From the NCBI RefSeq assembly GCF_023115425.1, contig NZ_CP096032.1, positions 1,116,001 to 1,180,000 on the forward strand: a stretch of 64,000 nt of DNA. Direction: 5' to 3'. The stretch is from Synechococcus sp. A10-1-5-1. GTDB taxonomy: Bacteria; Cyanobacteriota; Cyanobacteriia; PCC-6307; Cyanobiaceae. A program made the translations under genes and the position numbers. Below the pieces are notes generated by a model, which searched no databases, had not been told where the DNA came from, and saw nothing but the letters and a program-made list of their open reading frames with translations. Below, one piece after another: positions 12,432 through 54,088 of this stretch (within the stretch, counting starts at the first letter, position 1; every line of letters starts with the position of its first letter).

Positions 12432-13079
12432 TCAGTTCGCGGCTTTAGAGCCCACCCGCTTAGCGGGGAGGATGTTCAGCAGGGCACCGGGCTTACCGGG
12501 AACCGAGCCTTTCACCACAAGCAGATTGCGCTCAGCATCCACCTTGAGGATGGTGAGCCCGCGGGTGGTGATTTGCTTACCGCCGTAGCGGCCAGCCATG
12601 CGCTTGCCGGGATACACACGGCCGGGAGTCGTACCGGCGCCGGTGGAACCAGGCTCGCGGTGGTTCTTCGAACCGTGGGTCATCGGACCGCGGCTGAAGC
12701 CGTGGCGCTTTTGGTAACCAGCGAAACCACGACCAATGGTGTCGCCGCTCACATCGACCTTCTGGCCCGCCTCAAAGGCGGCCACGGTGACGTCACCACC
12801 AAGTTCCAGGCCGTCGACGGTGTCAACGCGGTATTCCTTCAGATGGCGCAGCAGCTCTTCCCCGGACTTGGCCAGGTGACCCTTAGCGGGCTTGCTGACG
12901 AGCTTTTCGCGGATATCACCGAAGCCGAGCTGAACGGCGGTATAGCCGTCGGTGCTGTCGGTTTTGAGTTGGGTAATGCGGCAAGGGCCTGCCTCGATCA
13001 CGGTGACCGGGATAGCCCTGCCTTCGTCGTCGAAGAACTGGGACATGCCCAGTTTCTTCCCAAGAATGCCGATGGACAT
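12432..13079 (-). CDS. rplC: 50S ribosomal protein L3
   Basis: L3 is an early-assembly protein near the peptidyl transferase centre. The 215-residue product starts [20 protein letters not shown] and has the signature [20 protein letters not shown]. It is the first gene of this cluster: rpsJ (S10) is not upstream, as in other cyanobacteria where S10 lies with tufA. Immediately upstream of the ATG the transcript reads CCTCCTT, so there is no Shine-Dalgarno sequence. Confidence 0.96.
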
Positions 13080-19385: not shown

Positions 19386-19628
19386 TTAGCCGTCCGCCAG
19401 CGTCCACCAGCCCAGGGCGGGGCCCAGAAAGCGCACGGTCAACCAAAACAACACCAACGCACCAATGCCAATCCAGGCACCGCGGGTGGTGACTGAGACG
19501 AACTGCTCACCTTGACGCTGGGTTAAGGGCAGCCAAGGGGCAATACGGGGCGAGGTGTCCTTGGCCTTCGGGGTCTTCTTCTCACGGGGGGGCAAACCCT
19601 GTTCCGAGCGACGCTTGGCCTCTCCCAT
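19386..19628 (-). CDS. DUF2839 small membrane protein
   Basis: An 80-residue cyanobacterial protein of unknown function. The opening MGEAKRRSEQGLPPREKK is diagnostic of the family. A basic cytoplasmic half is followed by one transmembrane helix (about residues 50-73, AWIGIGALVLFWLTVRFLGP). Only a hairpin separates it from the DUF1815 gene downstream. Confidence 0.8.
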   Translation of the reverse strand: MGEAKRRSEQGLPPREKKTPKAKDTSPRIAPWLPLTQRQGEQFVSVTTRGAWIGIGALVLFWLTVRFLGPALGWWTLADG

Positions 19629-46887: not shown

Positions 46888-46958
46888 GGCGGCATGGCCA
46901 AGTGGTAAGGCAGAGGATTGCAAATCCTTTACCCCCAGTTCGAATCTGGGTGCCGCCT
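46888..46958 (+). tRNA. tRNA-Cys (GCA anticodon), integration site of the mobile element
   Basis: A full cloverleaf: acceptor GGCGGCA pairs with TGCCGCC, the anticodon loop TTGCAAA gives GCA, and the T-arm contains CCAGTTCGAATCTGG. The last 26 bases are repeated at 54063-54088. The gene is intact because the element carries a copy of its 3' end. A strong terminator follows at once. Confidence 0.95.
46933..46958 (+). repeat. attL: direct repeat of tRNA-Cys 3' end (left boundary)
   Basis: A 26-bp sequence from CCCCAGTTCGAATCTGGG through TGCCGCCT, identical to 54063-54088. It covers the T-arm and acceptor 3' strand of tRNA-Cys, the usual target of tyrosine recombinases. It is taken as the left attachment site of the integrated element. 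Confidence 0.9.
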
Positions 46959-46964
46959 CTGAGA

Positions 46965-47010
46965 AAATCCCCCAAACACCCGGTCAACACTGGTGTTTGG
47001 GGGATTTTTG
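46965..47010 (+). terminator. Terminator after tRNA-Cys
   Basis: AAATCCCCCAAACACC (46965-46980) pairs perfectly with GGTGTTTGGGGGATTT (46992-47007) around an 11-nt loop, followed by T residues. It lies inside the element, so the element supplies a terminator that insulates it from tRNA transcription. Confidence 0.9.
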
Positions 47011-47023
47011 ATTTGAAACGAAG

Positions 47024-47091
47024 GGTAGGTAACCGGTAGGTAACGGACCACCCACAACCAGTCCCCAAAACGTCCCTGGGACTTACCTACC
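47024..47091. repeat. Left cluster of GGTAGGTAA sites
   Basis: Two direct copies of GGTAGGTAA lie at 47024-47032 and 47035-47043 (11-bp period, one helical turn) and one inverted copy at 47083-47091. The same arrangement, mirrored in order, is at the right end. The pattern fits arm-type sites for the integrase or binding sites for an excision factor. Confidence 0.75.
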
Positions 47092-47254
47092 TCAACCCTC
47101 GAAAACGAGTGGATCGACCGCGCCAACCGCTGCCCACTGCGTTCAGAAACCCAAGGGTTGCCAGGACGCTTTGAAATGCCGCACGCCAACGGGTTTGCCC
47201 GTATCAGAAACTCTGTACGGTTCCTTTGTTCGGAAACGCCAAGGGTTCTGACCG

Positions 47255-47839
47255 ATGCCCAGATCCATCGGGTACGCCAGGTGCTCGACCACACACCAGG
47301 ACACCAACGCTCAGGTCACTGAACTGCGGTCTGCTGGGTGCGAGGAGGTCTTTGCCGAGAAGGTGTCCTCCCGTGCACCGCTGGAGAAACGACCCCAGTT
47401 GAGACGGTGCCTGGAGTCGCTGCAGGAGGGGGACGAACTGGTGGTCTCCAAACTCGATCGCCTCGGTCGATCCCAGGTGGAGGTGATCAACCGTCTCTCT
47501 GACCTCCAGACCAAGGGGATCTACGTCCGCACTCTGGACGGTCTGATCAACACCAGAGGACTCGGGAAACTCGCCCCACTGGTGATCGGACTGCTGACGG
47601 GTCTTGCTGAGGTGGAGAGGTCACTGATCCAGGAACGCACCCTGGAGTCGGTTGAACACCGCAGAAGGACAGGAGGAAACAACCTCGGTGGGCGCCCGAA
47701 GACCTCAGACAAGAAGGAACGACTGGTGGTTCGCCTGAGAGATGAGGGTGAGTCCTACAGATCGATCCGAGATCAGACGGGACTCTCTCTCGCAACGATC
47801 CAACGGATTCTCAAAGACCACATCACCACTACCGCTTGA
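47255..47839 (+). CDS. Serine recombinase (resolvase/invertase family)
   Basis: The 194-residue protein has the resolvase catalytic domain: IGYARCSTTHQDTNAQ with nucleophile S11 and nearby R9, then VVSKLDRLGRSQVEVI with the D-R-x-x-R group, and the long E helix (GLLTGLAEVERSLIQERTLE). A C-terminal helix-turn-helix (about 160-187, EGESYRSIRDQTGLSLATIQ) binds the res-type site. Length is that of Tn3-type resolvases or Hin-like invertases. It is the first gene from the left boundary. It could resolve dimers, invert DNA, or be cargo. Confidence 0.9.
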   Translation: MPRSIGYARCSTTHQDTNAQVTELRSAGCEEVFAEKVSSRAPLEKRPQLRRCLESLQEGDELVVSKLDRLGRSQVEVINRLSDLQTKGIYVRTLDGLINTRGLGKLAPLVIGLLTGLAEVERSLIQERTLESVEHRRRTGGNNLGGRPKTSDKKERLVVRLRDEGESYRSIRDQTGLSLATIQRILKDHITTTA

Positions 47840-47843
47840 TGCC

Positions 47844-48017
47844 ATGACCAAGATCGACATCCAGTACCAAGACCAGTTCGGGAAGTGGAGACACCTCCAG
47901 ACGAAACACAACGAGGGAGATGCGTACCGCACTGCTGCTAACCGTGCCCGATCCACAGGGAAACGCCATCGACTGGTGGATCAAGACGGAACTCTTTTGG
48001 ATTTGATCGATCCTTGA
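47844..48017 (+). CDS. Small hypothetical protein downstream of the resolvase
   Basis: A 57-residue protein (ATG at 47844, 4 bp after the resolvase stop): MTKIDIQYQDQFGKWRHLQT, ending RLVDQDGTLLDLIDP. It looks like a small beta-rich domain. The tight spacing suggests one transcript with the resolvase. Similar small proteins occur in picocyanobacterial genomes, by my recollection; function unknown. Confidence 0.65.
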   Translation: MTKIDIQYQDQFGKWRHLQTKHNEGDAYRTAANRARSTGKRHRLVDQDGTLLDLIDP

Positions 48018-48298
48018 GAGAAAATGCGGAAGTCAATCTATAAACTCTCCAGAGGGATCCTAAATATCGAGAAATATTCTCAGAAATAATGCCCCGCTCA
48101 ATGCCCATCTTAACCTGAGACTGCGTGGGATCGAAAGAGGGCATTCAGATCCCTTCCGCTGCAGTCAGTTTCAAGGAATACAGGTGCTGCAAGGGGTTTC
48201 ATGGGTGCCCAGAACCACTGGTATGACTAGGTTTTGAACACTCTCCAAAATAAGTCAACCTAAAACCTTGAGTCTCATCTCAGGGGTCGCAAAAACGC
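48018..48298. other. Non-coding stretch, element left interior
   Basis: No supported gene. Base composition drops to lower GC here. A small palindrome, GAGAA-ATA-TTCTC, lies at 48068-48080. Nothing else convincing was seen before the promoter at 48299. With the promoter and leader that follow, the gene-free stretch runs to 48531. Confidence 0.4.
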
Positions 48299-48327
48299 TT
48301 GACGTGACCGCCAATCTGCCCTATACT
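48299..48327 (+). promoter_or_regulatory. Near-consensus sigma-70 promoter
   Basis: TTGACG (48299-48304), a 17-bp spacer, and TATACT (48322-48327). Each hexamer matches five of six consensus bases and the spacing is optimal. The expected transcript starts near 48334 and would read the 114-residue gene after a leader of about 200 nt. Confidence 0.75.
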
Positions 48328-48339
48328 GACGTACGTCAG
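48326..48339. promoter_or_regulatory. 14-bp palindrome over the -10 and start site (operator candidate)
   Basis: CTGACGTACGTCAG is a perfect palindrome whose left end overlaps the -10 hexamer and whose right end covers the probable transcription start. This is the usual place for a repressor operator. Candidates for the repressor are the small possible ribbon-helix-helix proteins of the same element, or a host factor. Confidence 0.65.
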
Positions 48340-48531
48340 GGGTTGGTCAGAGACCTTCCCTGAGACGCAAATCGAATACCCTGCAACTCGCAAGAGTTTT
48401 CTTAAATATCTAGACATTCCCTCTCTGGATACGGTCAACACAAACCGCAAAAGGTGTAGTCAATAAACTGACTATAAACCCTACGCAGAAGTCTGCGAGA
48501 ACAACGAAAATATTGTCCAAATGGATCCAAA

Positions 48532-48876
48532 ATGAAAACAAACACTAAAGTCCAAGTCGCATTCAAAGTCACAATTCTCGTTGAACAAATCACCTGTTGT
48601 CCTGATTGGATTGGGGACGAGGATGGATATTTCACTAACTATGAACTTCCTGGATACCTGTTCGAAATTCGTCCTCTAGATCAGTTACTAAAACTTGGAT
48701 TCTCTCTGGACATGACAGAGGAGGAACAATGTGAATGGTTGATGAACATTTTTGATCACAAAGAGATTTATGCACGCATCGCAGATGAGTATGGTGAAGA
48801 CGTATACGACTTCTATGGAGAAGAAAGTTGCATGGACTTTTCCATATCTTCTGTTGAAATGAATCTCTGGTCTTAA
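48532..48876 (+). CDS. Acidic hypothetical protein of the element
   Basis: A 114-residue, strongly acidic protein (MKTNTKVQVAFKVTILVEQI). It has no signal peptide or membrane helix. The middle (DMTEEEQCEWLMNIFDHKEI) and the later EYGEDVYDFYGEES are rich in Glu/Asp and aromatic residues. I do not recognise a family. It has its own promoter (with a palindrome) and its own terminator, and is AT-rich compared with the host. An acidic protein of this size could be a DNA mimic or inhibitor, but nothing proves that. Confidence 0.65.
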   Translation: MKTNTKVQVAFKVTILVEQITCCPDWIGDEDGYFTNYELPGYLFEIRPLDQLLKLGFSLDMTEEEQCEWLMNIFDHKEIYARIADEYGEDVYDFYGEESCMDFSISSVEMNLWS

Positions 48877-48890
48877 GTTCAATCCTTATT

Positions 48891-48926
48891 TCCGCAGGAT
48901 GTTCCGCGCATCTTGCGGATTCTTTT
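48891..48926 (+). terminator. Terminator after the acidic hypothetical gene
   Basis: TCCGCAGGATG (48891-48901) pairs with CATCTTGCGGA (48909-48919) with one G-T pair around a 7-nt loop, followed by TTCTTTT. It lies 14 bp after the stop at 48876. Confidence 0.85.
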
Positions 48927-49005
48927 AAATGCATTTTTAAATATGCGTGCGTGATTTATCGCTAGATCTTTCTTGTTGAGTAAGGGTGCTTGGGTTGACT
49001 TTATG

Positions 49006-49034
49006 TCGACAGATGCGTCAATCACCTATATAGT
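49006..49034 (+). promoter_or_regulatory. Possible promoter of the HUH candidate gene
   Basis: TCGACA (49006-49011), a 17-bp spacer and TATAGT (49029-49034) form a plausible sigma-70 promoter about 100 bp before the GTG at 49141. A GGGGGA run 5 bp before that GTG could act as ribosome-binding site. Confidence 0.45.
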
Positions 49035-49140
49035 TAGTAAACACAAAGACAAAGGTGCTTAGACCCTTTGCAGAGGTAGAGATCGTCGAACTTTGCTTTA
49101 AGAGTCTCTGGAGTCTGTTGGATTCCCCAAGGGGGACTCG

Positions 49141-49791
49141 GTGTACCTCAAAATAACTCCAAAAATTCTCAAAACTCCAGTGATACCAATGGATCTCAAG
49201 AAATCAACCAAATACAACCACCAGAACAGAACCGAACGAAGTGAGGGTCATTCACGACCGAAGGGAGTGAATCAGTCAAGATCCTCAAGGACACTCCTGA
49301 ACCAGAAACTCCAAAGAATCCATCAAAAGACCAGATCGCATCCAAAGGTTCTCCAGGAACTCATCAGAGATCAATGGGAGAACAACTTCCGACCCCAGTG
49401 GTTCATCACATTGCTATGGAAAGGTCTCCCGACTCGATCTGAAACCGTCATCAGTCACTCAAGACACTTCAGGAACGTGTTCTTGACCTCGCTGTTGAAC
49501 CAACCCCTCAAGAAACTTCCTGAACCACCCTTTAGACCCCACCTGGTGTTCTTCCATGAACGGAAACTTTTAATCCATGAGGGTCGTCAGGTTCTCGCGT
49601 TCCACACCCATCTTCATCTGGGTGCTCTACCTGACCCTCTGAACCACCTCTGGTACCTGGACCACCTGATCCACCAGAAGGTCTCTCCAAGGGTCCAGAA
49701 ACTCCTCAAGACCACTTCAGAGGGGAACAGGGGTGTGGTGATCAAACCATGGAACTGGGACCACCATGCGTTCTACAACCTCAAGGACTAG
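49141..49791 (+). CDS. Candidate HUH-type replication endonuclease
   Basis: A 216-residue basic protein (GTG start at 49141; ATG at 49189 is an alternative). I do not recognise it as a known family, but three motifs occur in the order and spacing of rolling-circle Rep proteins: a hydrophobic WFITL at 87-91 (motif I position), FHTHLHL at 154-160 containing H-x-H (motif II, HUH), and Y212-x-x-K215 at the end (motif III). The first 75 residues are basic and low in order. If real, the protein would nick DNA for rolling-circle replication or mobilisation of the element. Homing-endonuclease or unrelated DNA-binding proteins are alternatives. Confidence 0.55.
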   Translation: MYLKITPKILKTPVIPMDLKKSTKYNHQNRTERSEGHSRPKGVNQSRSSRTLLNQKLQRIHQKTRSHPKVLQELIRDQWENNFRPQWFITLLWKGLPTRSETVISHSRHFRNVFLTSLLNQPLKKLPEPPFRPHLVFFHERKLLIHEGRQVLAFHTHLHLGALPDPLNHLWYLDHLIHQKVSPRVQKLLKTTSEGNRGVVIKPWNWDHHAFYNLKD

Positions 49792-49871
49792 TACTCCTAT
49801 AGACACCACCAGGACCCTGATCTGGTTTTGGATTACGAGAATTCAGATCTGGTGTTCTAAACAGAATAAAT

Positions 49872-49898
49872 AGAGATGTCCCCACCAGAGACATCTCT
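49872..49898. promoter_or_regulatory. Inverted repeat abutting the start codon of the small coupled genes
   Basis: AGAGATGTC (49872-49880) and GACATCTCT (49890-49898) form a perfect inverted repeat with a 9-nt spacer, ending at the base before the ATG at 49899. As DNA it could be an operator; as RNA the hairpin would hide the start codon region and block initiation. Confidence 0.65.
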
Positions 49899-50084
49899 AT
49901 GAAGACCCTTGCCAAATCAGATCAAAGAAATATCAATCTGTTCTTTGGAAAAAGAAATCAGACCACTCTGCAAAAGTTTGATTCCTTGTCCAATCAACTC
50001 AGACGATCCAGGACGGGTACTCTGGATTTCCTGATTACTCACTATGAATGGTTCCAGAACAACCGTAGTGAGGTGATCAGATGA
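49899..50084 (+). CDS. Small protein, possible ribbon-helix-helix
   Basis: A 61-residue basic protein (MKTLAKSDQRNINLFFGKRN). The stretch QTTLQKFDSLSNQLRRSRTG followed by TLDFLITHYEWF resembles the two-helix body of ribbon-helix-helix (CopG/Arc-type) proteins, in which a short N-terminal strand binds DNA. Its stop overlaps the start of the next gene (ATGA). An inverted repeat abuts its start codon, which fits self-regulation. The fold call is inference. Confidence 0.55.
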   Translation: MKTLAKSDQRNINLFFGKRNQTTLQKFDSLSNQLRRSRTGTLDFLITHYEWFQNNRSEVIR

Positions 50085-50215
50085 ATATCACCATTCGACT
50101 GACCAAGGTTGAATCTGAGATGCTGAAGGAACTTCAGAAGAAGGATAAGAGGTACAAGAAGGGATTGGGTGAGAAGGTCAAGTCAGACCTTATGTCCGAC
50201 TACAGAGGGAGTTGA
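50081..50215 (+). CDS. 44-residue possible ribbon-helix-helix protein
   Basis: Starts at the ATG that overlaps the previous stop (ATGA). The sequence MNITIRLTKVESEMLKELQK then KDKRYKKGLGEKVKSDLMSD looks like a minimal ribbon-helix-helix: an alternating strand (ITIRL) followed by two helices. Its size is close to CopG (45 residues). The pair could be a co-repressor set or antitoxin-like proteins; no toxin gene is evident next to them. Confidence 0.55.
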   Translation: MNITIRLTKVESEMLKELQKKDKRYKKGLGEKVKSDLMSDYRGS

Positions 50216-50236
50216 GGTAGAATACAAATATTCCTA

Positions 50237-50245
50237 CCCCCCCCC
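50237..50245. repeat. C9 homopolymer tract before the GSCFA start
   Basis: Nine C residues in a row end one base before the ATG at 50247. Such tracts slip in replication. Here the tract would alter spacing to an upstream ribosome-binding site or change frame if translation began upstream at 50169. Confidence 0.8.
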
Positions 50246-50246
50246 T

Positions 50247-51302
50247 ATGGGAAAGAATCCGTATTCAGATCTTCCTAAGAGTGCATTCTGGAAGACAGGG
50301 GTTGCTCAAGAGAACCCCTATGCAATAGAAGGTATTTACAAGAAGAAATTTGATATCCCTGCTAGCGCGAAAATCGCAACTGCGGGATCTTGTTTTGCTC
50401 AACATATTTCTCGTCATCTCAAAAAGAATGGATACAACGTTTTGGATGTAGAACCACCGCCACCAGGACTACCAAAAGATCTGCATCAGAAGTTTGGATT
50501 CTCGATGTATTCTGCAAGGTACGGGAATATTTACACTGTTCGTCAGTTATTGCAACTTGCTCAAGAGGTTGCGGGCGAGTGGACCCCTCAAAATTACATT
50601 TGGGAAAAGAACGGAAAGTTTTTTGACGCTTTAAGACCTGCTGTTGAACCAGAAGGTCTCGATTCACCAGAAGAGGTCGCAGAACATCGTCGATATCACG
50701 TCTCACGAGTCAAAAAACTTTTAGAAAGTCTTGATTTGTTCATCTTTACGCTTGGACTCACTGAAATGTGGGCACATAAGGAGTCTGGAACTGTCTACCC
50801 AACTGCACCTGGGACTCTTGTCGGTAACTTCGATGATGATCTTTTCGAGTTCCAAAATTCCCGCTTTGGTCCAATCAATAGCGATATGAAATGTTTTGTC
50901 GAGGTGCTTAGACGTATTAGAGGAGGCAAGAGTTTTCAAATGATTCTGACTGTTTCTCCTGTTCCGTTAACCGCTACAGCAAGTGGACACCACGTATTGC
51001 CATCTACCGTTTATTCTAAGTCAACATTGCGTGCGATAGCAGGTTTATGGGCAGACAGACCTTTTGTAGACTATTTCCCTTCTTACGAAATAGTCACAAA
51101 CCCCAGGATGCATTCAACTTCGTTTGCGGATAATTTAAGGTCTGTCAGAGATGAGACGGTTGAAGTTGTTATGAGACATTTTTTTTCGGAGCATTCCGTT
51201 TTCAAGATTGACAATAAAGCACTCCATCTCAGCGAATCAAATCAGCAGTCAATAGGAGATATTCAGTGTGAAGATGCACTATTGGAGGCATTCTCGAGAT
51301 GA
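50247..51302 (+). CDS. GSCFA-domain protein (cargo)
   Basis: A 351-residue protein of the GSCFA family, an SGNH-related fold seen in bacterial glycan clusters. The name-giving motif is in ASAKIATAGSCFAQHISRHL (about residues 39-58). It is followed by VEPPPPGLPK, a tyrosine-rich region, FIFTLGLTEMWAHKESGTVY, and an HSTSFADNL stretch where a catalytic histidine might lie. I chose ATG 50247 because the conserved core (NPYSDLPKSAFWKTGVAQEN) follows at once. It overlaps the next gene by ATGA. Family members are suspected O-acyl transferases or esterases of glycans; the substrate here is unknown. Confidence 0.8.
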   Translation: MGKNPYSDLPKSAFWKTGVAQENPYAIEGIYKKKFDIPASAKIATAGSCFAQHISRHLKKNGYNVLDVEPPPPGLPKDLHQKFGFSMYSARYGNIYTVRQLLQLAQEVAGEWTPQNYIWEKNGKFFDALRPAVEPEGLDSPEEVAEHRRYHVSRVKKLLESLDLFIFTLGLTEMWAHKESGTVYPTAPGTLVGNFDDDLFEFQNSRFGPINSDMKCFVEVLRRIRGGKSFQMILTVSPVPLTATASGHHVLPSTVYSKSTLRAIAGLWADRPFVDYFPSYEIVTNPRMHSTSFADNLRSVRDETVEVVMRHFFSEHSVFKIDNKALHLSESNQQSIGDIQCEDALLEAFSR

Positions 51303-52057
51303 AAGGTCTCGTTGTCGGTAATTCACAATGTGGAATCTTGTACTCCGCCTACAAATCATTGGCAGAAGAAATAAGAATTGAACTTGATTTCTTTGCAGCG
51401 CCTGGGGGGAACGGACCATGCCTCACGTTATGTCAGGATCCACTGTCGATACAGTTCAAATTTTTATCTGATAGATCCAGGAAATACTTTAAATCAAACG
51501 TGACGGACGATCCAAAGTTCAAAATACGAATAGAAGATTACGACTTCGTTCTTCTCTCAGGCGTTGGTGACGCAGCACTGAGGAAACAATTTAATTTGGT
51601 TGAGAATAAAGCGGTTGTTTCGGGGATCTGCGATTCAAATTCTCAAAGAACGCTCCCTCTTATTTCAAAGTCTGTATATCTTTCTATTTTAGAGAATAGA
51701 TTAAGAAGAAATCCTTCGTGCATAAACATTTCTACTGTAGGGAGTTTGTGCGATAAACTCGGTAAAAAATTATTTGTTCAGATGTTCCCATTGCCTACGC
51801 CTAATCTCGTCGATCAGGAGCATTTTTCGATGCAGCATTTCGGCGCTGACTTGGGCAGATTTCTTTCCTGGAGGTACTGTGAAAGGTCGCGTCTGATCAG
51901 CGAGATACACTCTGCCACTTCGTTTGAGATTCTTGACTATGATAAAAAGTGGATTCGTGATGGGTTTTTCCCCGATGAGTTTGCTTATAAAGATGCATGG
52001 CATCCTAAAGTTGGCGAATGGTTCGTGCTTAATCGTCTAAGTCAACTTAGTCTTTGA
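51299..52057 (+). CDS. SGNH-hydrolase-like protein coupled to GSCFA
   Basis: A 252-residue protein starting at the ATG that overlaps the GSCFA stop. It begins MKGLVVGNSQCGILYSAYKS, where GNSQ fits block I of SGNH hydrolases with S9 as nucleophile. It ends with KDAWHPKVGEWFVLNRL, a D-x-x-H catalytic pair. The middle is divergent. With GSCFA it probably modifies a surface glycan (acetyl or other acyl groups), which is inference. Confidence 0.65.
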   Translation: MKGLVVGNSQCGILYSAYKSLAEEIRIELDFFAAPGGNGPCLTLCQDPLSIQFKFLSDRSRKYFKSNVTDDPKFKIRIEDYDFVLLSGVGDAALRKQFNLVENKAVVSGICDSNSQRTLPLISKSVYLSILENRLRRNPSCINISTVGSLCDKLGKKLFVQMFPLPTPNLVDQEHFSMQHFGADLGRFLSWRYCERSRLISEIHSATSFEILDYDKKWIRDGFFPDEFAYKDAWHPKVGEWFVLNRLSQLSL

Positions 52058-52419
52058 TATCATCGGATTGGTAAAATGAATTTGATAGGCACTCTCTGAT
52101 TTTGCGAAAGCACCAATATTCATTCAATTGCCTGTAAAATTATTGTGCTTGAATTTCTCTGGCGCCTTTATTCTTGAGTGTCTGCTGTCCAACTTTTTAT
52201 TGGTCGAAGGAAGTCTGTCTTTTTTCTTGTGTGTTTTTCTTGATTGTTGGGTCTACACCGTGCAAGGTCCTCGATGCAAAACTTAGGTATAAATAATCTG
52301 ATGTCGGATTTTTTTGATGGTCGAAAATATTCGCCAGTTCTCTCTGAACTCTCTGCCTACAAATCATGAACGTATGGGTTTCGCATCCAGTCGGTTCCAG
52401 TCGCTCCTTTGAGTTGTCC
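52058..52419. other. Gene-free stretch right of the cargo
   Basis: This 362-bp region has no convincing gene. It contains several short T-runs (for example near 52219-52225) but no clear stem before them, so I cannot name a terminator. Short frames across it are not conserved-looking. Confidence 0.4.
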
Positions 52420-52527
52420 TCAACCAGTCGCCAGTGCCCCAGTTGCCCTCTTCGCATCGTAGTGGAAGTAGTGCTGCTGGATGTACTCGATTGAGGTGTC
52501 GCAGTTGTTGCAGAAGGTTCTGAACCT
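52420..52527 (-). pseudogene. C-terminal remnant of a second tyrosine recombinase
   Basis: Directly after the integrase stop, in a different frame on the same strand, the translation reads FRTFCNNCDTSIEYIQQHYF and then HYDAKRATGALATG. This matches the C-terminal end of many phage and picocyanobacterial tyrosine recombinases (of the type AKNCxTSxExIxxxY), with the catalytic tyrosine in QHY. The rest of such a protein is not present upstream, where the intact integrase occupies the DNA. It looks like a scar of an earlier integrase or a recombination junction. Confidence 0.5.
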
Positions 52528-53927
52528 CAGGTCTCTCCTGCTCTTTTGACCATTGTCCACTTGCCCTCTCCAATCGTCTGACGAGACTCTCTTGCAGTTC
52601 TTTCTGCGTCGATGTACCTGAGATAAGTATTTCTGAGTTGATCTGGACTGGTATGACCATTGTCTGCGAAGGAATTGATCTTTGGAGGAATTGCCAATGA
52701 CGGATCTTCTTCGAGAGTCAGTCGGAATGCCGTATGCCGAATAGTCGTCCATTTCCTTCCTGCTGAAGGGAACTCATTCCCAAAGGTTTGCTCCATAACA
52801 TGCTTCAAGAGAAAGTTCAGGGTCTTCAGGACGTGACTGTCTGCTGGATTTCCTGATGGTCTTTCGATCTGGGGAAGAACTAGATAACCAGATGGTTTTC
52901 TCCTTTTGAGTCGCTCCCAGAATCTGTATGCATCGTTTCTGTAGTGGGTCGTCTGGTGGATCGGACGATCCTTTTTTGTGGTCTCCAGATTGCAGACCAC
53001 CGTTCTGTTTCCCTGGTCCTTGAACCACTCGCTCCTGAGTCGGTACATGTCTTCTGCCCGCAAGTAAAAGAACCACTCCAAGAGGAGTGCGTCATAAAGG
53101 TCAACCCAGTTGCGTTGGTTGAGTCGGTTGTTCTTGCTCCACTCCAAATCCAAGTACTCGTCTGGATCCAGGAGTTTTCTTGCCGAGTCAAAGGATAAGT
53201 CCACCACTGCTGCCAGTAGTTGATCCCACTGTTTCTGGGTCAGGTGCTGAACCTGTTTGGTCTGCTTGCTGATCGCGGGAAATCTCGGGAATGCATGTCC
53301 AGGGAAATCGTCCTCTGCCAACACCAGAAGTTTGTTGATGAGGGTCTTCTGCTGCCCTTTCATCCCGCTGCCATTTGACCCATTGCTCCCTCTTGCCCGT
53401 CTCTCAAGAAGGGAGAAGTAATCCTTGAAGTCTTGACTGGTGATCAGGTCAACACTTCTTGTTGCCCATGGTTGGTGACGGATGCCGTATTCATCCGCCT
53501 CCCACTTCAGGGACTCCTCTCGCCTCCATCGCTTGAAATTCCGCTGTGTCTCCCTGGTTCGGGATTCCGCCTGGAAGTACTTGTCCCAGTAACTAGTCAG
53601 AGAGTTCTTGGTTTGCTCGTGCTGCTGGTCCAGTTGTGCCCTGCTGCCGCTCTGCCACTGCTGGAACAGAGAGACCGATCTCTTCGCTGCCTCGTAGGGG
53701 TCTTCCGTTCCCGTACTCCTCTGTACGGTCAAACGCTTCCCCAGACCCCCCTTGGATCGCCCCTGATGCGGTCGTGGGTCCTCGTTGGGGTCTGGCAACC
53801 ATTCCGCGTACAGGACGCGTGTATGGGTCTGTCGCTTGATCCTGAGGTTCTGCGGGTACGAACCACGCACACCGAAGACCTTCGAGACGTTCAGGGTCGT
53901 CCAGTTCTCAGGAAGTGACTTGCCCAC
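52527..53927 (-). CDS. int: Tyrosine recombinase (integrase) of the element
   Basis: A 466-residue site-specific recombinase. The N-terminal part (1-100) is basic, a SAM-like core-binding region follows (about 105-210), and the catalytic domain (about 225-445) shows R290 in YLRAEDMYRLR, K318/K319 in ETTKKDRP, the box WTTIRHTAF with R397 (Thr in place of the first His of HxxR), G424-H425 and nucleophile Y435 in NTYLRY. It is near the right boundary and transcribed inward. One GGTAGGTAA site lies 6 bp upstream of its start codon, so binding there could repress its own expression. It is expected to act on the tRNA-Cys repeats. Confidence 0.92.
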   Translation of the reverse strand: MGKSLPENWTTLNVSKVFGVRGSYPQNLRIKRQTHTRVLYAEWLPDPNEDPRPHQGRSKGGLGKRLTVQRSTGTEDPYEAAKRSVSLFQQWQSGSRAQLDQQHEQTKNSLTSYWDKYFQAESRTRETQRNFKRWRREESLKWEADEYGIRHQPWATRSVDLITSQDFKDYFSLLERRARGSNGSNGSGMKGQQKTLINKLLVLAEDDFPGHAFPRFPAISKQTKQVQHLTQKQWDQLLAAVVDLSFDSARKLLDPDEYLDLEWSKNNRLNQRNWVDLYDALLLEWFFYLRAEDMYRLRSEWFKDQGNRTVVCNLETTKKDRPIHQTTHYRNDAYRFWERLKRRKPSGYLVLPQIERPSGNPADSHVLKTLNFLLKHVMEQTFGNEFPSAGRKWTTIRHTAFRLTLEEDPSLAIPPKINSFADNGHTSPDQLRNTYLRYIDAERTARESRQTIGEGKWTMVKRAGET

Positions 53928-53932
53928 CTCGC

Positions 53933-54008
53933 TTACCTACCTGGGTCTTGCCACCCGGTACCGACCACTGATCGATTTTGCCGTCTCTGGTAGGTAAGTG
54001 GTAGGTAA
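53933..54008. repeat. Right cluster of GGTAGGTAA sites
   Basis: One inverted copy lies at 53933-53941 and two direct copies at 53989-53997 and 54000-54008, again 11 bp apart. The left end has two direct copies followed by one inverted. The inverted copy here is next to the integrase start codon. Confidence 0.75.
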
Positions 54009-54043
54009 GTTGCCGCCTCTTTCGCTGAGAACGCAGTGTGGAC

Positions 54044-54066
54044 GGGGTTTTTCATCATGAAACCCC
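54044..54066. other. Hairpin overlapping the right attachment repeat
   Basis: GGGGTTT (54044-54050) and AAACCCC (54060-54066) flank a 9-nt loop; the right arm enters the 26-bp repeat. The equivalent left sequence is tRNA. It may replace the lost part of the tRNA structure, help Int binding, or act as terminator. Confidence 0.5.
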
Positions 54067-54088
54067 AGTTCGAATCTGGGTGCCGCCT
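54063..54088 (+). repeat. attR: direct repeat of tRNA-Cys 3' end (right boundary)
   Basis: A 26-bp copy identical to 46933-46958, with no tRNA 5' part in front of it. It marks the right edge of the element; host sequence resumes after it. Confidence 0.9.

Follow-up and report, generated by a model that had tools for sequence, protein, structure and literature searches.

An integrative element in tRNA-Cys of Synechococcus sp. A10-1-5-1 with paired boxes at its ends and a probable HUH endonuclease gene

Ends, composition and occupancy of the tRNA-Cys site

The DNA analysed here, referred to as the window, comprises 64,000 nucleotides of Synechococcus sp. A10-1-5-1 (NZ_CP096032.1, positions 1,116,001 to 1,180,000), the genome of which is a single contig of 2,404,104 bases. 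The window carries a 7.1-kb element within tRNA-Cys (GCA; 46888–46959, + strand), the integration target. The 3' end of this tRNA gene supplies the left core (attL, 46933–46958, +), and a second copy of the same 26 bp forms the right core (attR, 54063–54088, +); the two copies are exact and enclosed in a 39-nt repeat pair of 87% identity with a spacing of 7130. A small serine recombinase (SR) is encoded at the left end (47255–47839, +) and a tyrosine recombinase (YR) at the right end (52527–53927, −), with a gene for a HUH-like protein (REP), small open reading frames (ORFs), and cargo genes in between. The GC content is 0.39–0.52 over 47750–53499, as compared to 0.61–0.72 in the left flank (from 40000) and 0.55–0.68 in the right flank (to 59999), with values of 0.55–0.61 near the element ends (all in 500-base windows). 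An initial annotation of this DNA had put forward the direct repeat, the two recombinases, the AT-richer interior, and the lack of virion genes, and each was borne out; as for the last, none of ten scanned ORFs had a significant virion-gene match, the best being a 114-aa ORF (48532–48876, +) with a non-significant E-value of 0.016 to a head-and-packaging family and no relative in the 40 loci compared. Inside the left end, a perfect 17-bp inverted repeat ending in T (46964–47008) is probably a terminator behind tRNA-Cys.

The comparison with genus relatives also sustained the proposal that the 7.1-kb stretch had integrated into tRNA-Cys. A search with the left flank gave matches in 24 of the 25 genus genomes (counting the window's own), and since the match in genome G005 ends before the tRNA, flank and tRNA-Cys are visible together in 22 relatives, of which 21 were examined (G012 was left out). 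Twelve of these 21 sites are empty, with one core copy and the right-hand gene 671–748 bases behind the tRNA. Both window flanks match at 79–85% in G008, G003, and G015, and the joined flanks of the window align with these three genomes gap-free across the core and the next ten bases, with small gaps farther out. A related 6.6-kb element occupies the same tRNA-Cys in G002, and another in G001 is broken by contig ends, one contig carrying an arm box (see below) beside the tRNA and the other carrying YR, REP, SR, and the second core. Four further sites (L085, L094, L097, and L098) have 3.5–9.1 kb between tRNA-Cys and the right-hand gene and hold something else, as neither a second core nor an arm box is found there, and in the remaining 3 of 21 sites the contig was too short to classify. 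Given the empty sites in relatives and the related elements at the same tRNA in two of them, the 7.1-kb stretch is an integrative element in tRNA-Cys.

Relatives of the element are also found across the family, as sampled by genomes several of which are drafts that break inside elements. Of 400 family genomes, 39 gave YR matches, many only as fragments, and the 19 YR loci examined are the longest matches among these 39 genomes, the others being fragments or weaker. Both ends lie on the contig in 16 of the 19 loci; L172 and L176 run into a contig end before any partner repeat, and L041 is split over two contigs. A repeat of the tRNA 3' end recurs upstream of the YR start in all 16 elements with readable ends (tRNA-Cys in ten, tRNA-Phe in six), and the repeat pair in the window is therefore beyond chance. 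Fourteen of the 16 pairs are exact over 23–36 bp, while in L170 and L173 the repeat extends to about 100 bp at 84–86%. The elements are 6.2–12.9 kb long, counted from the beginning of the tRNA to the outer repeat. One of them, L168 (in G051), shows a second exact 27-bp repeat at 12978–13004 (inside the element, left) and 19548–19574 (outside, right), which an earlier insertion may have left behind. Another, L166 (in G186), is possibly a chimera of two elements, with an SR match of only 32–40% identity in two pieces, a REP fragment, and left and right arm boxes that differ.

The tyrosine recombinase and the paired boxes at the element ends

The 466-aa YR has no significant match in Pfam, PHROGs, NCBIfam, or PDB sequences, and the 19 members yield no YR-family Pfam match at an E-value of 1. 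Yet R290, K318, R397-H398-T399, and Y435 are invariant in the 19 members (catalytic roles judged by eye); another residue stands in place of the first His of the usual HxxR, and the later His is variable. Along with a profile match of moderate strength to host integrases (P 58%, E 1e-4, obtained without an unrelated control), these catalytic-type residues identify the protein as a tyrosine recombinase (integrase). Apart from the moderate level of that match, two points speak against this assignment and its place in a mobile element, as a structure model built from three sequences gave no usable fold (pLDDT 36), and YR relatives are absent from the plasmids, phage records, and IMG/VR entries searched.

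Short boxes of about 9 bp, paired exactly 11 bp apart, lie at both ends of the element. The left pair (47024–47044, +) and the right pair (53988–54010, +) each consist of GGTAGGTAA twice, and single inverted copies are found at 47083–47091 (−) and at 53933–53941 (−), the latter immediately upstream of the YR start. An inverted copy farther inside also occurs in several of the other elements. When the region within about 250 bases of 34 ends (17 elements) was scanned for exact runs at a given period, period 11 gave a run of at least 8 at 33 ends and of at least 9 at 32, whereas other periods from 7 to 20 gave a run of 8 at no more than one end and a run of 9 at none. Controls at period 11 scored in 2 of 471 interior windows and, for shuffled ends, at a mean of 0.085 of 34. 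The sole missing end is the left end in G001, situated on another contig, where the box is present.

The box sequence varies among elements, being GGTAGGTAA in the window and GGAAGGTGA, GGTCGGTAA, GGTATGTAA, and others elsewhere, with a mean distance of 2.4 between elements. Box distance correlates with YR identity at rho −0.55 for the N-terminal and −0.28 for the C-terminal part (136 non-independent pairs). Based on their position and their likeness to described arm sites, the paired boxes are probably arm-type integrase sites. A count unfavourable to this is that left and right boxes are identical in only 9 of 16 elements; they differ by one base in five and by three bases in G186, and in G034 they are out of register.

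The HUH-like protein REP

The 216-aa protein REP (49141–49791, +) is probably a HUH endonuclease of the replication-initiator type, as suggested by its motifs, their order, and a predicted fold. HUH proteins include relaxases; in Rep proteins the Tyr comes after HxH, while in relaxases it comes first. Of 400 family genomes, 24 (counting the window's own) have relatives of REP, and a profile search of 291 class genomes returned four positives, all of Cyanobiaceae. Among 12 members, H155, H157, H159, Y212, N213, K215, and D216 are invariant among others, and YxxK is present in all 12 members of this near group. In a wider set of 19 divergent homologues, excluding the truncated copy of the window and including seven distant members, the order FxE, HxH, then Tyr recurs (F in 18, E in 19, both H in 19, Y in 18), and conservation of at least 90% is seen in the columns P, F, E, H, H, Y, and D. 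By hhalign, the near group is homologous to the distant one (P 97%, E 3e-11). Since the conserved Tyr follows HxH, the motifs point to the initiator type.

A structure model was obtained for a close, longer relative (86% identical, 8 sequences; pLDDT 78, pTM 0.73). Its secondary-structure elements run beta-alpha-beta-beta-alpha-beta; the third strand bears HxHxH, and the Tyr immediately precedes a short C-terminal helix. In VIA-align, the top ten rows are Rep nuclease domains of AAV and other parvoviruses (Z 7.1–8.0, the best being AAV2 Rep at 8.0), and Foldseek against viral models lists Rep-named proteins and microvirus initiators at an E-value of about 0.01. The HUH fold is thus supported but modestly so, and the fold alone would be weak. 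Several results count against the assignment: unrelated ferredoxin-like ribosomal rows follow directly in VIA-align at Z 6.9, and models without a clear match typically reach Z 7 to 8 there, so that such values may reflect a common arrangement only; Foldseek against PDB gave no match at an E-value of 0.001 or better, and in its listing of ferredoxin-like folds parvovirus B19 NS1 came no higher than ranks 11 and 20; and the viral-model matches rank below an unrelated top match (E 8e-4). In addition, distant homologues carry a second Tyr (YLGK/YLSK) after the aligned one, leaving the catalytic Tyr ambiguous there, and REP relatives are absent from the plasmids, phage records, and IMG/VR entries searched. 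Sequence and profile searches in Pfam, PHROGs, NCBIfam, and PDB produced nothing convincing, and no Pfam Rep family was matched. Weak profile matches to dynein light chain (E 0.07) were taken as chance, and an IS200-type transposase was rejected, as PF01797 was not matched by the 12 members.

Whether REP accompanies an integrase was assessed at 30 places merged to 27 loci. At 20 of these, a YR is encoded no more than 7 kb away (a raw count with no background rate), five being of the Pfam-missed type and 15 Pfam-found, one of which (G146:C7) falls below the curated cut-off; the other seven loci have no YR within that distance. As seen from the elements, REP occurs in only 5 of 17: G001 and G002 have it at full length, the window has a truncated copy, G097 a split one, and G186 a fragment. 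The window copy is ended by an in-frame stop that deletes the conserved C-terminal tail, although 22 further codons stay open and relatives have longer copies. A search of 13 large ORFs from 9 of the 12 REP-less elements, confined to large ORFs, recovered no replication gene. None of four contigs with REP relatives had the exact overlapping ends of a free or circular copy. The surroundings of REP were searched for a double-strand origin, and none was identified; a promoter-like CTATATAATT stretch and a conserved 15-nt word stood out, neither of them decisive. The word, GGGACTCGGTGTACC, lies at the upstream end of REP (49133–49147), is common to the window, L034, and L035, and sits within a longer match to G097. 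The rarity of REP among the elements and the failure to identify an origin argue against replication. The earlier suggestion that the element might replicate by itself is strengthened by the presence of a HUH Rep-like gene, but truncation affects the copy in the window, and the gene is missing from 12 of the 17 related elements. Self-replication of the element is thus unproven.

Other arrangements around REP-like genes were encountered as well. At L042 (G298:C47), a REP fragment adjoins a Prim-Pol ORF (PF09250, E 5.5e-6) and an ORF that looks ATPase-like by eye. A second compact element type in Cyanobiaceae, seen at L193 (G249:C10), L053, L052, L195, L196, and L194, combines a YR with a distant HUH-like protein and adjoins a gene resembling 3-methyladenine glycosylase (by eye). 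In L193, the YR is a PF00589 protein of 357 aa and a Y1_Tnp ORF is also present, and a 141-bp stretch of this locus is found twice in each of L053, L052, and L196.

Proposed mechanism, rival explanations and cargo

The element is likely a site-specific integrative element moved by its YR, with a proposed HUH-based rolling-circle replication after excision. The ends, the empty sites, the relatives at the same tRNA, the box pattern, and the conservation of HUH-type motifs are directly evident, and from the sequence we infer how box binding, excision, replication, resolution, transfer, and cargo function might fit together. YR would join a circular molecule to the tRNA-Cys 3' end by recombination at the 26-bp core, leaving the tRNA intact. 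As in lambda-type integrases, the paired 9-bp arm boxes on either side of the core are probably contacted by the N-terminal part of YR, and the inverted box immediately preceding the YR start could have a role in autoregulation. Once the element has been excised, a nick introduced into the circle by the HUH protein would prime replication by the rolling-circle mode; the two small ORFs behind REP are putative copy-control or expression regulators, and the serine recombinase would resolve multimers. The cargo perhaps alters the cell surface. As its HUH protein is without the conserved C-terminal tail, the window copy may integrate and excise without replicating. Going beyond this element, it is a fair possibility, somewhat short of even, that Cyanobiaceae harbour a class of integrative replicons, in which an undescribed HUH initiator and its small partner ORFs are combined with different tyrosine integrases, and hence different target genes, the replicons being mainly integrated and replicating by rolling circle after excision.

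The kind of element is already known in outline. A preprint from 2023, "Large language models improve annotation of viral proteins" (PMC10187409), described a picocyanobacterial element defined by an integrase that standard profiles miss, located at tRNA-Cys or tRNA-Phe in marine Prochlorococcus and Synechococcus, often beside a small SR and with variable cargo; its YR is distinct from tycheposon and VEIME integrases, and the mobilisation mechanism was stated to be not yet known. Compared by description, the window element shares the YR unrecognised by family models, its catalytic residues, the tRNA-Cys/Phe site, and the small SR. The exact ends, the arm boxes, and a HUH gene, all three found in the window element, were not found in the text of PMC10187409, the main text of which is without "repeat", "arm", or "rolling" as whole words; a literature search for these three features of such elements likewise found none. 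What is added here is thus the exact ends, the arm-box pairs, and a probable HUH gene. With these ends, the probable arm boxes, and a candidate initiator, the mobilisation mechanism becomes directly testable, and the 11-bp-period boxes offer a simple signature to find and delimit such elements in picocyanobacterial genomes.

Resemblances to better-known systems are partial. AICEs of actinomycetes such as pSAM2 combine a tyrosine integrase acting on a tRNA gene with a rolling-circle initiator (PMC3218068), as is predicted from sequence for the window element. Unlike these, the window element has an SR, no conjugation gene was recognised, and no Pfam Rep family matched its HUH protein; the FtsK-like translocase of AICEs had no match among the ten scanned ORFs. 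The attP site of ICEMlSymR7A comprises five P/arm-type sites with the consensus TGKTGGTATC (PMC11963761), and the putative integrase sites of the window are similarly short repeated boxes beside the core; in contrast, boxes of the window type form pairs with an exact 11-bp period at either end and vary from element to element.

The initial annotation had named tycheposons and phage satellites as the closest known kinds, and while the tRNA-targeting integrative nature holds, both names fit less well. A tycheposon in the strict sense, i.e., one of the tRNA-targeting cargo elements of Prochlorococcus, would account for the tRNA target, the tyrosine recombinase, and the cargo, and the size is inside the 4–200 kb quoted in PMC10872708. 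However, PMC10187409 places such a YR apart from tycheposon integrases, and this identity, judged from that description, is improbable. Packaging by a helper phage, as for a phage satellite, is likewise improbable; the small size, the tRNA site, and the lack of a recognised virion gene would suit it, but no packaging or capsid-remodelling gene was recognised among the ten scanned ORFs, some of them of unassigned function, and no YR or REP relative was found in the IMG/VR or phage records searched.

Two further explanations were considered. An integrative and mobilisable element, with the HUH protein acting as a relaxase for conjugal transfer and not as a replicase, would be in keeping with the presence of relaxases among HUH proteins, yet it appears improbable as well, given the Rep-like position of the conserved Tyr behind HxH and the fact that library scans of the element ORFs recognised no coupling protein or other transfer gene. 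A decaying island that is no longer mobile is somewhat less far-fetched, though still unlikely: the HUH gene is truncated in the window and fragmentary in several relatives, whereas YR and SR have open frames, the two cores do not differ, and the arm boxes of the left end agree with those of the right.

Among the remaining genes, the 194-aa SR is of the resolvase/invertase type (Pfam Resolvase E 3.4e-32, HTH_7 3e-5, phrog_125 2.5e-47), and a related ORF occurs in 16 of 17 elements by clustering and in 15 by direct tblastn with the window SR; one relative was found in IMG/VR. It is followed by a small conserved ORF (47844–48017, +), the conserved part of "orf91". Behind REP lie orf61 (49899–50084, +), conserved at this position, and the small orf44 (50081–50215, +), both ribbon-helix-helix-like by eye only and without a Pfam match. 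The predicted cargo includes a GSCFA-family protein (50247–51302, +; PF08885, 9.3e-47) and a 252-aa protein (51299–52057, +), WcbI/SGNH-like by eye only and with no significant library match. Related elements carry an acyltransferase-SGNH protein, an arylsulfotransferase, a sulfotransferase, type I restriction genes, a DNA methylase, and TPR proteins, which may suggest a role of the cargo at the cell surface or in defence. Traits such as the sulfotransferases, the acyltransferase-SGNH protein, and the type I restriction genes could bear on phage resistance. Matches to the GSCFA cargo itself are present in 11 of 201 family genomes, one of them the window's own.

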